From positions 1-39,653 of IMG/VR virus record IMGVR_UViG_3300025154_000225: a stretch of DNA of 39,653 nt, one strand, 5' to 3'. This DNA is from a virus. Below, piece after piece: positions 4,647-12,375 of this stretch. Both the position numbers and the translations under genes were made by a program. The notes under the pieces are model-generated. The model was not told the DNA's origin and did not search any database. It was given only the letters and a program-made list of their open reading frames with translations. How positions within the stretch are numbered: the first letter of the stretch is position 1; the number at the start of each line of letters is the position of its first letter.

Positions 4647-4652
4647 GCGGTT
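4632..4652. terminator. Hairpin terminator at the convergent gene ends
   Basis: AACCGCC (4632-4638) pairs with GGCGGTT (4646-4652) across the stop codon of the RacA-like gene and the stop of the convergent HNH gene. It can act on both strands, although the T-runs are poor. Confidence 0.5.
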
Positions 4653-5205
4653 ATACAACTAATTGCTCGTCTAACTTATTAGACTTACCAATATTACAAC
4701 TATTGCATAATGTTCTAAGGTTATCTGGTGAGTTTAGTTGATTTATGGTCATATCTCTACCCTCTGGACTGTTAACAGGTATTATATGATCTACATGCAA
4801 TTTAACTCCTTCATCATTAACGCCAGCACCACACCAGACACATCTATAATTATCTCTTTTTAATATTTTTACTTTTAGCGAAGGTGATACGTGTCTACCA
4901 AAAGTAATTTTTTTCTCAGATACAAAGACCTTGTTTGGTGATAAAACTTTACTCTTTAGGTTGTTATGTGATTCTGACAATTCTTTATGTTTTGCGACAA
5001 GATTATTATATTTATCAACTAAACTATTATAGTTTTTAGCTATTCTATTTCTGTCCTCTACTACAGGACTATGGTATTTATCAAGAAAACACCTACAGCA
5101 TATAAAAACGCTTTTGTCTGTACCATTTGCGGGTGGTAAAAGATAAGCAAAATAGTTTTCACCACAAATACTACATAACGCTAATTCATTTAATTTTGGA
5201 ATTAT
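4651..5205 (-). CDS. HNH endonuclease with N-terminal zinc ribbon, apparent AUA start
   Basis: The open frame is 184 residues. An N-terminal zinc ribbon (CSICG at residues 11-15, CCRC at 36-39) leads through a coiled-coil linker (residues 50-85) to an HNH nuclease: CVWCG 122-126, HVDHIIP 137-143, CNSC 167-170. The first AUG/GUG/UUG-type codon in frame is TTG 4980, which would cut off the zinc ribbon. The frame is open back to ATA 5203-5205, which overlaps the stop of the upstream RHH gene (ATAA) and has GGGAGGG about 6 nt before it. I therefore take ATA (or the following ATT) as the start. It resembles free-standing homing endonucleases of phages and forms an operon with the RHH gene. Confidence 0.7.
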   Translation of the reverse strand: MIPKLNELALCSICGENYFAYLLPPANGTDKSVFICCRCFLDKYHSPVVEDRNRIAKNYNSLVDKYNNLVAKHKELSESHNNLKSKVLSPNKVFVSEKKITFGRHVSPSLKVKILKRDNYRCVWCGAGVNDEGVKLHVDHIIPVNSPEGRDMTINQLNSPDNLRTLCNSCNIGKSNKLDEQLVV

Positions 5206-8966: not shown

Positions 8967-9607
8967 CCCAGCACCTCCCGGCGTAAATTTCCCACAAGAT
9001 AACTTCTAAACTCCAACCCGTTTTTATTCTCCGACTTAATCATTTTGTTAATTTCCTTTAACTTTCGCTCGTCGTTAGTGACTATTAAAACGGCAGGAAA
9101 CCGCTTAGTATGCTTTACCCACCATTGATCTGGTAAATTATCGTACAACTTATTATATTTCCGCACCTTATCAAACTCGTTACCCGGATGATGAATGTCC
9201 ATTTCGATAAACAGAAACCTAAACTGACCCGTGATTGTATTTTTAATAGCAATAAAGCAATCTGTAATTAGTATTTTCATGTCATAATTGAAGTCTACGG
9301 AGTAAATTTCCTCCCATGACTTCAATTGTCGCTCTATCCAGATAACCGCCCAATTAAGCAATACGGTATGCTCTATCTGTTTAATTTCCTTCTGGAAGTA
9401 TGCGTATGGTTCTTCTGGCGAATAACGGAAACGTCGTAACCTTAACTGATCGGTCAACCTCTTTAATCTTTGCTGACATTTTCTTTTACCAGATGCGGTC
9501 AATGGGAATAGTAATACCTGTACCTGTTCGGCGTTAAGACATTTATGACTACCTACGCGCCATGCTATTTCGTTATCGCGGCAATAGCCGTGTTTTCTGT
9601 GAGACAT
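8963..9607 (-). CDS. Replication-relaxation family protein
   Basis: 214 residues from ATG 9607. An N-terminal winged-helix-like segment (LNAEQVQVLLFP, then RLKRLTDQLRLRRF) leads through IEHTVLLNWAVIWIERQL to a strand-rich nuclease-like core (LITDCFIAI, FRFLFIEMD). Next come NEFDKVRKYNKLYDN and FPAVLIVTNDERKLKEINKMI. This order matches the replication-relaxation (Replic_Relax) family known from plasmids and integrative elements. It starts within the 3' end of the FtsK gene, and such pairs are typical of plasmids and phage-plasmids. The longer start at 9628 is possible. Ribosome binding site weak. Confidence 0.75.
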   Translation of the reverse strand: MSHRKHGYCRDNEIAWRVGSHKCLNAEQVQVLLFPLTASGKRKCQQRLKRLTDQLRLRRFRYSPEEPYAYFQKEIKQIEHTVLLNWAVIWIERQLKSWEEIYSVDFNYDMKILITDCFIAIKNTITGQFRFLFIEMDIHHPGNEFDKVRKYNKLYDNLPDQWWVKHTKRFPAVLIVTNDERKLKEINKMIKSENKNGLEFRSYLVGNLRREVLG

Positions 9608-10700
9608 TGCACCACTCGTTAAAAACATCCATATCCCTGCCTTTCAATAGATTTTTTGCCTGTTTGACTGGCAGGTGCATTGTCTGTACTTCCTTGGTAT
9701 CCATACCAAACTTATATATCGCCCTGCCTTTTATTCCCGGCAAATGTGCGGCAATAGAGCAATTTTCACCTAGCACCATGCGACTATTTAATTCGTCGGC
9801 AACTTGAAAGCATAACCTCGCTTGGAACATTGCCCTTGTGTCGCCCGGCAAAACCTTTGTTGACGGTCTTTGTGTTGCCGCTATTACAGATATTCCAACC
9901 GCCCTAGCAAGTCTGGTTATGCGGTCAACTAACTTGATTGTATCCTTGCAAGATATTTCTGCTAGTTCGTCAATCACGACAACAATAAATGGTAATGGTT
10001 CTTTCGCTGTTTTATTGTAGTCTTGAATTTTAACTACCTTTGCCTTTTCTAATGTCCTTATACGCTGCTCCATGCCTTTCTCGACAGACTGCATCAACAA
10101 TAACGCTTCTTCCTCTGTCTTTGCTAATGCCGCATAATCCTTCAAATAGGCGAATTCTAACCGCTTTAGGTCAATAATTCCTATTCGTGCTACTGGCAGC
10201 AATGAAGCAATAAGGACATGCAGAAAGTTTGATTTTCCATACCCCGGTACTCCGGCAACAAGTAGATGCGGAGATTCTTCAAGCGGTAGCACTTCTAGTC
10301 CCTGCTTGCTAATTCCGACAGGTATAGGCAAGTCTAATTTTCCGCTATAATCCCAAACGTATTCTAACTTACTTGGTATCTCGTTAGTGTTTATGTCCAT
10401 GTACAAAAACCTCCCCTTCTTAATCATTTCCACATTCAACCCGGTAGCATCCTCAAAGTAGTCTTGCTGACTTTTTAATGCGTTAAATGAGGTGCCGGGG
10501 CGCATAGTAAATATCATATGCCAACCTGTAGGAGTTTTCTTAATCCCCTTCCGTATAGGCAATATACGGGGTTTATTTGGGGGATAAAGTATGTCTATAG
10601 TGTCTAGTATGGTTGCAGGTATTTCGTTGCCCTTACGGTGTCTCCATGCTATTTTAAGGGCATCTATGCCATCGGCAAGAAGGTTATTTTTTTTCTCCAT
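9573..10700 (-). CDS. FtsK/SpoIIIE-type DNA motor ATPase without gamma domain
   Basis: 375 residues from ATG 10700 (GGAGGTATGTT upstream); a longer frame to 10835 runs through the divergent promoter and is rejected. Walker A GVPGYGKS at 150-157, Walker B VVVIDELAE at about 240-248, sensor-like ATQRPS at 275-280, and the family end (GRAIYKFG) are all present. The N-terminal 140 residues are soluble, with no membrane anchor, and the C-terminal gamma winged helix of chromosomal FtsK is absent. Such short motors sit beside replication-relaxation proteins in plasmids, ICEs and some prophages and may move or partition circular DNA. Its leader overlaps the first RNA promoter on the other strand. Confidence 0.85.
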   Translation of the reverse strand: MEKKNNLLADGIDALKIAWRHRKGNEIPATILDTIDILYPPNKPRILPIRKGIKKTPTGWHMIFTMRPGTSFNALKSQQDYFEDATGLNVEMIKKGRFLYMDINTNEIPSKLEYVWDYSGKLDLPIPVGISKQGLEVLPLEESPHLLVAGVPGYGKSNFLHVLIASLLPVARIGIIDLKRLEFAYLKDYAALAKTEEEALLLMQSVEKGMEQRIRTLEKAKVVKIQDYNKTAKEPLPFIVVVIDELAEISCKDTIKLVDRITRLARAVGISVIAATQRPSTKVLPGDTRAMFQARLCFQVADELNSRMVLGENCSIAAHLPGIKGRAIYKFGMDTKEVQTMHLPVKQAKNLLKGRDMDVFNEWCNVSQKTRLLPR

Positions 10701-10786
10701 AACATACCTCCGTTCGCTATGCTGTTCGTTAAGTTTATGCGGATAGAATTTGTCCATATTGCAGGTAAGTTTTAGGGAAAAAGTTG

Positions 10787-10815
10787 TTGAAATTGTTTTT
10801 GCTGGGTGGTATAAT
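10787..10815 (+). promoter_or_regulatory. Promoter P1 of structured RNA 1
   Basis: TTGAAA (10787-10792), 17 bp spacer ending GGGTGG, TATAAT (10810-10815). The spacer end and -10 (GGTGGTATAATA) are identical to P3. Unlike P2 and P3, no ACCGTAAACGGT-like operator is seen at the -35. Confidence 0.8.
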
Positions 10816-10821
10816 ACATCA

Positions 10822-11300
10822 ACAGATCCCACCACGCCTCTGTCTAAATCAGGCGCACCATGGTGGGACGGTAAATAAGCGGAGGCGCAAAGAGTGACGC
10901 TATATCTAAGACCGGGAAGTGAGTCCGTGGCAATTCGGACATAGAGTCTAGTGACTAGTGCCCGGCAATTGCAAGGTTTGATTCCTTGCCCGCTTAACGG
11001 TTATGGGAACGAAAGAACCCTATTTGATGGACATTATTGGTCAGACATGATAGGTCTTGATCGTACCTTAAAGCGACACTACAGACGGTTGATATTAAGA
11101 GGTTTTAGCATACCGGAGTAGTAAATAAGCGAATAAAAATCTCATAAACACCCAAGAGATGCAGTATACGGCATTGATGGTGACAAAACTCTCCAACGTA
11201 TCTTATCTTTAAAGTGTGGGTGTGTAAGCACAGCGAACCTTGACGTACACCATGGCGCGCACTTTAAAAATAGGGTATGTGTGGGGAGTTTTGTTTTGAG
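10822..11300 (+). ncRNA. Structured RNA 1 (about 480 nt): 5' pseudoknot, tRNA-like domain, closing stem-terminator
   Basis: No coding frame fits. From 5' to 3': stem TCCCACCA (10827-10834) with TGGTGGGA (10861-10868) encloses CGCCTC (10835-10840), which pairs downstream with GAGGCG (10882-10887), a pseudoknot. CGCCT can instead pair with AGGCG at 10851-10855. A 7 bp stem TAAGCGG (10876-10882)/CCGCTTA (10990-10996) lies next to a T-arm-like hairpin CAAGG-TTTGATT-CCTTG and encloses a branched domain closed by CCGGG/CCCGG. The pseudoknot and the 7 bp stem share 10882, so they may exclude each other at that base. The 3' end is a 12 bp stem ACAAAACTCTCC (11183-11194)/GGGGAGTTTTGT (11283-11294) with a T-rich tail, containing further nested stems. 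Not a known tmRNA or riboswitch that I recognise. Confidence 0.7.
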
Positions 11301-11415
11301 TAAAAAAAAGAGGCCGACCGTGGAAGGCGACCTTTAGTAGATATACTTCGGGATTATTTATGCTAGTAAGATAATCCGGTGATACTATAACTATTCTATG
11401 CCGGAGATTATTTCT

Positions 11416-11447
11416 CCTGCAAACGGTATAAATATACCGTAAACGGT
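11416..11447. promoter_or_regulatory. Operator pair at the Tad2 promoter
   Basis: ACCGTAAACGGT (11436-11447) overlaps the first base of the -35 box. A degenerate copy (CCTGCAAACGGT, 11416-11427) lies exactly 20 bp upstream. The arrangement matches that at 11877-11908. Confidence 0.65.
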
Positions 11448-11475
11448 TGAATTTTTATTTGCTTAGTAGTATAAT
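11447..11475 (+). promoter_or_regulatory. Promoter P2 of the Tad2-like gene
   Basis: TTGAAT (11447-11452), 17 bp spacer, TATAAT (11470-11475). The leader is short, about 28 nt to the GTG start. Confidence 0.8.
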
Positions 11476-11510
11476 TGAATGACGAATAGAGGATTATGGA
11501 GGGATAAATA

Positions 11511-11849
11511 GTGTTACCGAAGAAATACCCCTGCAAACCTGATATTTTCGAGGCTACATATGATGATGCTGATGGTGAAACGGAAAGCACCCAAAAGACG
11601 GGACTGAACTTCGGTCAGGCGCTGGATGCTCTGAAAAAAGGTGACTGTATATCAAGGAAAGGTTGGAACGGCAAAAATATGCACGTTAGTATGCTTAGTC
11701 TATATACTGCCGACAATGTTCCGATTGATAACAAATGTCTCGTTCTATTTAATGTCAACTGTAAATACAACACATGGGTTCCGAGCATAACCGATCTGCT
11801 TGCCGATGACTGGGAAGTAGTCAACCAACAACACACAAACTCTCTCTAA
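11511..11849 (+). CDS. tad2: DUF2829 protein, Tad2-like anti-Thoeris candidate
   Basis: 112 residues from GTG 11511, with TGGAGGG 7 nt upstream. After a charged, roughly 30-residue N-terminal extension comes a DUF2829 domain: NFGQALDALKKG (33-44), RKGWNGKNMHV (49-59) and WVPSITDLLADDWEVV (89-104). The hallmark GWNGK and the terminal LLA-DDW are present. Members of this family (Tad2 of phage SPO1 and relatives) sequester the cyclic-ADPR-type signal of Thoeris defence; that role is taken from the family. The middle is divergent (KCLVLFNVNCKYN), so ligand range may differ. It stands on the opposite strand to its surroundings, has its own repressor-like operator and terminator, and lies between two structured RNAs. 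Confidence 0.8.
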   Translation: MLPKKYPCKPDIFEATYDDADGETESTQKTGLNFGQALDALKKGDCISRKGWNGKNMHVSMLSLYTADNVPIDNKCLVLFNVNCKYNTWVPSITDLLADDWEVVNQQHTNSL

Positions 11850-11868
11850 CTGAGGGAGTTTTTTATTT
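11837..11868 (+). terminator. Terminator of the Tad2-like gene
   Basis: AACTCTCTC-taact-GAGGGAGTT followed by TTTTTAT; the stem overlaps the stop codon. Confidence 0.85.
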
Positions 11869-11876
11869 ACCCATAA

Positions 11877-11908
11877 ACTGTATACAGTATTCTTCTACCG
11901 TAAACAGT
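11877..11908. promoter_or_regulatory. Operator pair at the RNA 2 promoter
   Basis: ACTGTATACAGT (11877-11888, a perfect palindrome) and ACCGTAAACAGT (11897-11908) are spaced 20 bp start to start. The second overlaps the first base of the -35, exactly as in P2. Confidence 0.7.
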
Positions 11909-11936
11909 TGCAACACAATTAACTCGGTGGTATAAT
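11908..11936 (+). promoter_or_regulatory. Promoter P3 of structured RNA 2
   Basis: TTGCAA (11908-11913), 17 bp spacer ending CGGTGG, TATAAT (11931-11936). Confidence 0.8.
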
Positions 11937-11942
11937 ATTCAC

Positions 11943-12120
11943 ATCGAACCGCTACGCCTCTGTCTTCGCGTGATATGCGTACATGGCGGTTACTCCGATA
12001 ATCTGAGGCGAAAGGAAGTGAATACCTCCGTGTGGAATTAGCATTGTTATTGAATCTAGTAGTAGTGTATTCCGTTGAAAAAATTTAGCCTTTAGATGGA
12101 CGCGAGAGCGTTCTTTTTTT
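11943..12120 (+). ncRNA. Structured RNA 2 (about 180 nt), 5' domain homologous to RNA 1
   Basis: The stem AACCGCTA (11947-11954)/TGGCGGTT (11984-11991) differs from RNA 1 at several positions but keeps pairing, with one G-T. CGCCTC (11955-11960) again pairs with GAGGCG (12005-12010) outside it, giving the same pseudoknot. CGCCTCTGTCT is identical in both RNAs. Downstream GGAAT...ATTCC forms a further stem, and the hairpin GGACGC-gaga-GCGTTC with T7 (12098-12120) terminates. Read-through would carry the tRNA at 12225. There is no open frame of note. Confidence 0.65.
12098..12120 (+). terminator. Terminator of RNA 2
   Basis: GGACGC-gaga-GCGTTC stem (one wobble) followed by TTTTTTT. Confidence 0.85.
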
Positions 12121-12224
12121 ACCCAAAAAGCAACTGTGGCAGACAGGGAATTAATTAGAATTCGTGGCGAATCAGCAATAACAAATTCAAAATTAGGATT
12201 AATATGAAGTTAGTCCCTCCGTAT
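12121..12224 (+). other. Spacer between RNA 2 terminator and tRNA, nothing recognised
   Basis: About 100 nt without coding frame, clear promoter or strong stem. GAATTAATTAGAATTC-type self-complementary stretches are present. The tRNA therefore seems to depend on read-through or on a weak unseen promoter. Confidence 0.4.
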
Positions 12225-12300
12225 TGTGAAGTAACTCAGTTGGTAGAGTGGTTGACTATTAATCAGCTTGTCGTAGGTTCGAGACCTACCTTCACAGCCA
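12225..12300 (+). tRNA. tRNA-Asn with unusual anticodon AUU
   Basis: A full cloverleaf with encoded CCA. Acceptor TGTGAAG (12225-12231)/CTTCACA (12290-12296), D-stem ACTC/GAGT, anticodon stem GTTGA/TCAGC with loop CTATTAA, variable TTGTC, T-stem GTAGG/CCTAC with loop TTCGAGA, discriminator G, CCA 12298-12300. Anticodon ATT at 12258-12260. Bacterial tRNA-Asn normally has GUU, and the loop differs from the usual CTGTTAA by one G-to-A change. All stems are perfect apart from one G-T pair, so it is not a decayed gene. Confidence 0.92.
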
Positions 12301-12324
12301 GTAGTCCCTATGAAGGACATGACG

Positions 12325-12369
12325 ACAAAACTACCTTTTAGATTATACTAAGGGTAGTTTTGTTTTTTG
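12325..12369 (+). terminator. Terminator after the tRNA
   Basis: ACAAAACTACC (12325-12335) pairs with GGTAGTTTTGT (12353-12363), followed by TTTTTGT. The GACAAAACT...AGTTTTGT motif repeats the 3' closing stem of RNA 1. Confidence 0.85.
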
Positions 12370-12375
12370 TCCAAA

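Follow-up and report, generated by a model that had tools for sequence, protein, structure and literature searches.

Orphan abiF-family RNAs in phages as candidate decoy antitoxins against host AbiF

The window analysed here is a whole IMG/VR virus record of 39,653 bases (IMGVR_UViG_3300025154_000225), most of which is covered at 99.9% identity by a 59.9-kb relative (G001). At 10,780-12,370, between a leftward FtsK-like gene (open frame 9573-10835) and a leftward amidase region, it holds a plus-strand island that comprises, in order, a structured RNA (RNA 1), a Tad2-like gene, a second RNA (RNA 2) and a tRNA-Asn, with one sigma-70-type promoter before each of the first three. RNA 1, our main subject, is almost certainly, as judged from its sequence, an orphan member of the abiF RNA family (RF03085). 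Such RNAs were previously known beside abiF genes; AbiF is a HEPN ribonuclease toxin, and its family is believed to have given rise to Cas13. The original prediction for this DNA had described an island running against the surrounding genes, with three promoters at 10787, 11447 and 11908 and spacers of 17 base pairs (bp); all three were found again, with spacers of 17 bp, and the two predicted non-coding transcripts, the Tad2-like gene and the tRNA-Asn all lie opposite to their neighbours. The 30-nucleotide (nt) segments of the three promoters are 70-80% identical to each other, spacers included (repeat family D1); that of RNA 1 (10786-10815) is a TG-extended TTGAAA-17-TATAAT matching 11 of 12 consensus positions, and a promoter scan placed those of the Tad2-like gene and RNA 2 at 11446-11475 and 11907-11936. 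The island of one further locus (L020) is identical to that of the window, so covariation was not obtainable from it.

RNA 1 opens with the leader AACAGA and an abiF-family antitoxin-like hairpin (10821-10873), whose stem (10827-10834/10861-10868) continues into an inner stem, CGCCT/AGGCG (10835-10839/10851-10855); an A set against a 6-nt asymmetric bulge (NACCAN), together with the inner CGC/GCG stem, is the arrangement of abiF RNA, and RNA 1 shows it. The anti-motif GCGGAGGCG at 10879-10887 is the complement of CGCCTCTGT at 10835-10843, with which it could form a pseudoknot or an alternative to the inner stem (duplex -15.0 kcal/mol). At 10876-10996 lies a tRNA-like domain (fold z-score -2.35) with acceptor-like strands TAAGCGG/CCGCTTA (10876-10882/10990-10996) and a T-arm-like hairpin GCAAGG-TTTGATT-CCTTGC (10971-10989, loop TTTGATT). 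Such a domain had been proposed at the outset, and its acceptor stem and T-arm geometry bear this out in part, although neither ARAGORN nor the Rfam tRNA model (RF00005) calls it as a tRNA. A long hairpin with 13-bp outer arms (11183-11294, inverted repeat I14; z-score -6.5) is probably the end of the RNA 1 transcript.

An Rfam scan of the island gave a single non-trivial match, RF03085 at the RNA 1 hairpin, with 27.2 bits (E 0.033 over all families), below the gathering cut-off of 37 bits. The score is weak because the RNA 1 subtype scores low with the Rfam model: in 299 genomes from the phylum of Clostridium sp. AT4, RF03085 returned 14 matches at E <= 0.001, several of them directly upstream of an AbiF gene, and 10 of the 14, again including several that adjoin an AbiF gene, fell under 37 bits, so that the cut-off is strict for this subtype. 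Clostridial AbiF-linked RNAs share with RNA 1 the motif ACGCCTCT...GCGNACCA.GG.GGG, the AACAGA leader and the presence of a promoter; they continue with CCCACCACGCCTCTTAACAATGCGGACCAAGGTGGGA after AACAGAG, and RNA 1 with CCCACCACGCCTCT..GCGCACCATGGTGGGA after AACAGA. We also scored RNA 1 with a covariance model (R2) built from 78 aligned phage orphans; RNA 1 itself fits one of the two search patterns used, and both it and RNA 2 were left out of the alignment and the model. R2 gave RNA 1 43.1 bits (E about 2.8e-10 in the window, by a rough calibration), with the next window match at 16.0 bits, and gave Bacillota RNAs with an adjoining AbiF match 37.7-68.7 bits. By R2 score and motif RNA 1 is thus abiF RNA and not, as had been considered, possibly a new RNA family. 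Among the outcomes that would refute the original prediction, a known Rfam family clearly matching the region had been named; RF03085 is such a match in kind, though below cut-off with Rfam's own model. GOLLD and ROOL are long structured phage RNAs that lie near tRNAs, and a likeness to them had been raised; neither these nor any other large RNA family gave an Rfam match, and RNA 1 is explained by abiF RNA. We also rejected a decayed coding gene, as the one frame in RNA 1 with a ribosome-binding-site-like start has 16 codons and RNA 2 has none.

RNA 2 (11943-12121) has a hairpin at 11947-11954/11984-11991, the anti-motif GAGGCG at 12005-12010, at the same 13-nt spacing as in RNA 1, and an intrinsic terminator at 12098-12120 found by a terminator scan. 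The 5' block that the two RNAs were said to have in common, CCRCYACGCCTCTGTCT, matches at 15 of 17 nt (88%, repeat D5), and their common order of stem and pseudoknot is upheld by P1 (8 bp) and the CGCCTC/GAGGCG pairing, which pair in 27 of 27 alignment cells; the alignment holds two two-sided compensatory changes, with a third masked by an alignment gap. The closing stem proposed for both is present in part: GACAAAACT...AGTTTTGT stems stand at 11183-11294 and 12325-12363, and the hairpin is terminator-like in both places, but the one assigned to RNA 2 is the intrinsic terminator behind the tRNA (inverted repeat I12, ACAAAACTACC.../AGTTTTGT, with a T-run seen in the sequence). As RNA 2 has its own terminator, the tRNA and RNA 2 need not form one structure. 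The RNA 2 fold is slightly better than that of shuffled sequence (z-score about -2), and its abiF scores are weak, with 15.5 bits for RF03085 and 13.2 bits for R2 (E 0.17). RNA 2 is, from its sequence, a diverged paralogue of RNA 1 whose abiF membership is unproven. Homologues of the two RNAs were sought with exact blocks in viral contigs and genomes, which returned near-identical contigs and chance matches, with a model of RNA 1 and RNA 2 (R1) across 398 genomes, where matches stayed at chance level, and with blastn against phages, which gave no match.

The AbiF domain Abi_2 was not found in the window or in relatives. Of two DNA patterns for the RNA 1 subtype, one matched viral contigs at 78 places and the other at no fewer than 120, and among the motif matches listed 145 of 153 had no adjacent AbiF and 8 had one; the missing AbiF downstream of RNA 1 is the same state as in those 145, as expected of an orphan copy. 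When 50 whole records were searched for Abi_2, each of the three positive controls had it and all 47 orphan records lacked it. The orphan hairpins pair far better than chance: 68 distinct matches picked by loop sequence alone formed a mean of 5.35 of 6 stem pairs, against 3.64 with swapped flanks (maximum 3.88 in 200 swaps), those with at least five stem pairs had 37 different 5' strands, and the 78 aligned orphans had a covariation score of 0.370 against 0.116 when shuffled and at most 0.132 in slid versions. This is strong evidence that the stems remain under selection for structure. Among named phages, blastn with a clostridial abiF RNA recovered 39 records (31 Bacillus, 7 Enterococcus and 1 Sulfurimonas), mostly Nitunavirus, the Bacillus matches including the Bacillus subtilis SBSphiJ group, phiNIT1 and Grass (Nitunavirus, Herelleviridae), with the RNA mostly located where no gene is annotated; R2 gave these Bacillus phage RNAs 46-51 bits. 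Abi_2 was absent from the five genomes checked (phiNIT1, SBSphiJ5, Grass, SBSphiJ and Bajun) and detected in the positive control phiC2, and some of the seven Enterococcus records may carry AbiF. By these searches orphan abiF RNAs are common in phages and turn up in many that are unrelated to each other. Several abiF RNAs of Bacillota genomes also lack a clear adjoining AbiF match (L097, L092, L095, L098 and L079); that of L097 has its own terminator and, judged by eye, a ParB-like frame downstream, which suggests a prophage orphan. Other loci (L181, L225, L229 and L211) hold extended variants with a separate family architecture, in which further hairpins seemingly take the place of the usual 3' stem strand.

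The proposed association of the island RNAs with tRNAs extends to the orphans at large, as a tRNA stands no more than 300 nt away from 23 of 96 distinct orphans, where random positions gave 7.8 (maximum 15). An acceptor-plus-T-arm signature follows the hairpin within 170 nt in 13 of the 96, against a random mean of 1.1 (maximum 4); nine of the 13 are real tRNAs by ARAGORN and four are not, including RNA 1 and the Nitunavirus RNA. The latter has an acceptor-like stem CTGGAC/GTCCAG and a T-arm CGAGG-TTAGATT-CCTCG after its hairpin, and is thus a parallel to RNA 1 with its tRNA-like domain. In Brevundimonas phage Bajun the abiF RNA lies within a tRNA array, and in Bacillus phage phiNIT1 it stands near the start of a tRNA-flanked, largely non-coding region of about 900-1200 nt (L296, 2340-3560) that looks like a large structured RNA region common to Nitunavirus.

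The Tad2-like gene of the island (11511-11849, 112 amino acids) had been recognised as such, or as DUF2829, and both profile and structure comparisons agree: PF11195 matches with 73.1 bits (cut-off 25; E 2.8e-20), the GWNGK...WxPS..D.LA.DW core is present, and the protein aligns with solved Tad2 chains (e.g. 8wje and 8sme, E about 3e-13). Its product is probably a Thoeris anti-defence protein, which would sequester Thoeris signal molecules. A terminator scan placed the intrinsic terminator of the gene at 11837-11861. A fixed link between orphan abiF RNA and Tad2 was rejected, since just two weak Tad2-like matches occurred in 96 loci; these are frames in L246 (E 5e-6) and L227 (E 0.002). Strandless operator-like palindromes lie upstream of and touching the Tad2-like promoter (11423-11447, ACGGTATA/TATACCGT and ACCGTAAACGGT) and at the RNA 2 promoter (11877-11908, ACTGTATACAGT and ACCGTAAACAGT), and none lie at the RNA 1 promoter, which suggests that the Tad2-like gene and RNA 2 are jointly repressed. 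The window has four copies of the form ACNGTWWACNGT, where 0.19 would be expected, and three of the four are inside the island. The tRNA-Asn (12225-12300; ARAGORN, Rfam; also in G001) has the anticodon ATT, and thus A34, where bacterial Asn tRNAs have GTT, with G34; A34 might let it escape nucleases that need G34. Elsewhere in the window, on the minus strand, a ProQ C-terminal-like phage protein (6813-7148, PF24203, E 5e-13) is a possible RNA-binding partner of the island RNAs, and an HNH protein (4651-4980) weakly resembles the Septu protein PtuB (E about 1e-6).

We consider RNA 1 to be, with fair probability, a decoy antitoxin RNA that keeps host AbiF inactive during infection. The RF03085 match names AbiF as the probable target, which strengthens the decoy idea put forward at the outset, and abiF membership together with the Tad2-like neighbour fits the original prediction of an anti-defence island whose RNAs act as decoy or inhibitor. 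The antitoxin RCd22, an abiF RNA from a prophage of Clostridium difficile R20291, acts in trans, binding directly to AbiF and neutralising the toxin, with the stem required (PMC12373285), and AbiF of a Prevotellaceae bacterium (PbAbiF) is a homodimer with two copies of its non-coding RNA (PMC12373285; PMC12737573). By analogy, an abiF-family RNA that a phage makes without the toxin should bind host AbiF, and we infer that such binding would protect the phage, with pseudo-ToxI of phage PhiTE as precedent. RNA 1, as a phage copy of the AbiF antitoxin RNA without the toxin gene, would be made from its own strong promoter and occupy the AbiF dimer inside the infected host, replacing or outnumbering the host antitoxin RNA, so that AbiF would stay inhibited at the point where infection would normally set it free. 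The tRNA-like domain would probably serve as a processing or stability element, and true tRNAs near other phage abiF RNAs may act likewise. Pairing of GAGGCG with the CGCCTC block, in competition with the inner stem (-9.5 kcal/mol for the 6-bp duplex, -15.0 kcal/mol for the 9-bp duplex in RNA 1), may gate the hairpin; this gating is speculative, and as the anti-motif was absent at its RNA 1 place in the other orphans tested, the role would be specific to the window phage. RNA 2 may perhaps serve against another AbiF variant, and RNA 1, RNA 2 and the Tad2-like gene would together form a small anti-defence island.

Several points weigh against this interpretation. The loop of RNA 1 is longer than in most members, its R2 score (43) lies under those of most host AbiF RNAs of its subtype, and RNA 2 by itself does not qualify as an abiF RNA. 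The anti-motif could mask the surface that binds AbiF, and a plain decoy would have no use for such masking. The viral records are contigs from IMG/VR, part of them fragments. A cis-regulatory role would also suit those orphans that stand in the 5' leader of a phage gene. In L127, L152, L157, L185 and L219 the hairpin precedes the start codon of related phage proteins of ~520 amino acids by about 60 nt, an instance of such placement that may be either a decoy embedded in a phage mRNA leader or cis regulation.

The best-surviving alternative, which we nevertheless regard as unlikely, is that the orphans are regulatory or processing hairpins whose binding partner, from host or phage, is not AbiF and which control the processing of tRNA-bearing transcripts or the expression of late genes. 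The unusual closeness of tRNAs and tRNA-like elements, the 29 of 96 orphans within 190 nt of a ribosome-binding-site-like start and the ProQ-like protein of the window phage would all suit it, but in loop and leader, both conserved, the orphans agree with AbiF-linked RNAs, and direct AbiF binding is published for this family (PMC12373285); many orphans are near neither a tRNA nor a gene start, and 37 of 96 have a U-tract after the hairpin. A role in lysogeny, in which the RNA is a spare antitoxin that shields the lysogen against an AbiF borne by a plasmid or another prophage in the same cell, appears less probable again: AbiF is common on plasmids and prophages, and repressor-like genes occur in the window phage, as do operator-like sites at two promoters of the island, but lytic phages carry orphan abiF RNAs too (the SBSphiJ group; S-CREM1, PMC9964418), and the molecular action would be identical to that of a decoy used during infection. 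Very improbable is the view that the orphans are functionless remnants of phage AbiF modules which lost the toxin gene, for although temperate phages with whole modules exist (phiC2; the 8 of 153 viral matches listed) and toxin loss could leave orphans, the strong covariation indicates continued selection, Abi_2 is wholly absent from all 47 orphan records searched, the RNA is retained in many isolates of the lytic Nitunavirus phages and the RNA 1 promoter still matches 11 of 12 consensus positions.

Returning to decoy action against AbiF, its extension beyond the window is finely balanced in our judgement: orphan abiF RNAs could form a general phage anti-defence class of AbiF decoys across many lineages, model lytic phages included; in a subset to which RNA 1 belongs the decoy would be joined to a tRNA-like domain, and the copy of the window phage would be gated by a self-complementary segment. 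Examples of RNA anti-defence are few (pseudo-ToxI and the Racrs) next to the many protein anti-defence genes. If the orphans are decoys, they would constitute a common and largely overlooked RNA counter-defence against AbiF, and phages would long have been countering the forebear of an RNA-guided immune effector by copying its guide-like RNA.

Among known systems, RCd22 and RF03085 (PMC12373285) resemble RNA 1 in leader, stem, inner stem, asymmetric bulge and own promoter; RNA 1 differs in having no abiF downstream, one hairpin per transcript where RCd22 has two, a longer loop, and a 3' anti-motif and tRNA-like domain. An abiF small RNA (sRNA) has been named in the lytic cyanophage S-CREM1, with Rfam said to list 'three bacteriophage genomes' (PMC9964418, 2023; repeated in PMC12197685); in the accessible part of that report it is one of several Rfam matches with its role left unstated, and that part holds no decoy idea, broad phage survey or tRNA-like extension. 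A region of phage sk1 is reported to protect phage 712 from AbiF (Rince et al. 2000, as cited in PMC12737573). Our models found no abiF RNA in sk1 or 712, and a short likeness of sk1 to RNA 1 near AAGCGGAGG was within chance, so the sk1 region may act in another way or through a lactococcal type beyond the reach of these models. The non-coding middle region of sk1 (L291, 27380-27910), also present in 712, carries a tRNA-Trp and a second, degenerate tRNA-like gene. In the literature covered, with subscription papers and most preprints outside its scope, we found no proposal of orphan phage abiF RNAs as decoy antitoxins. The closest precedent in action is phage PhiTE, which evades ToxIN by RNA mimicry of the antitoxin (pseudo-ToxI, PMC3475682): it too is a phage RNA that imitates a type III antitoxin and blocks abortive infection, but its toxin family is ToxN, its fold consists of pseudoknot repeats and it was reported for rare escape mutants. 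The Racr RNA anti-CRISPRs (PMC10651486) are likewise solitary phage copies of the RNA part of a defence system, but imitate CRISPR repeats and target CRISPR-Cas instead of AbiF.

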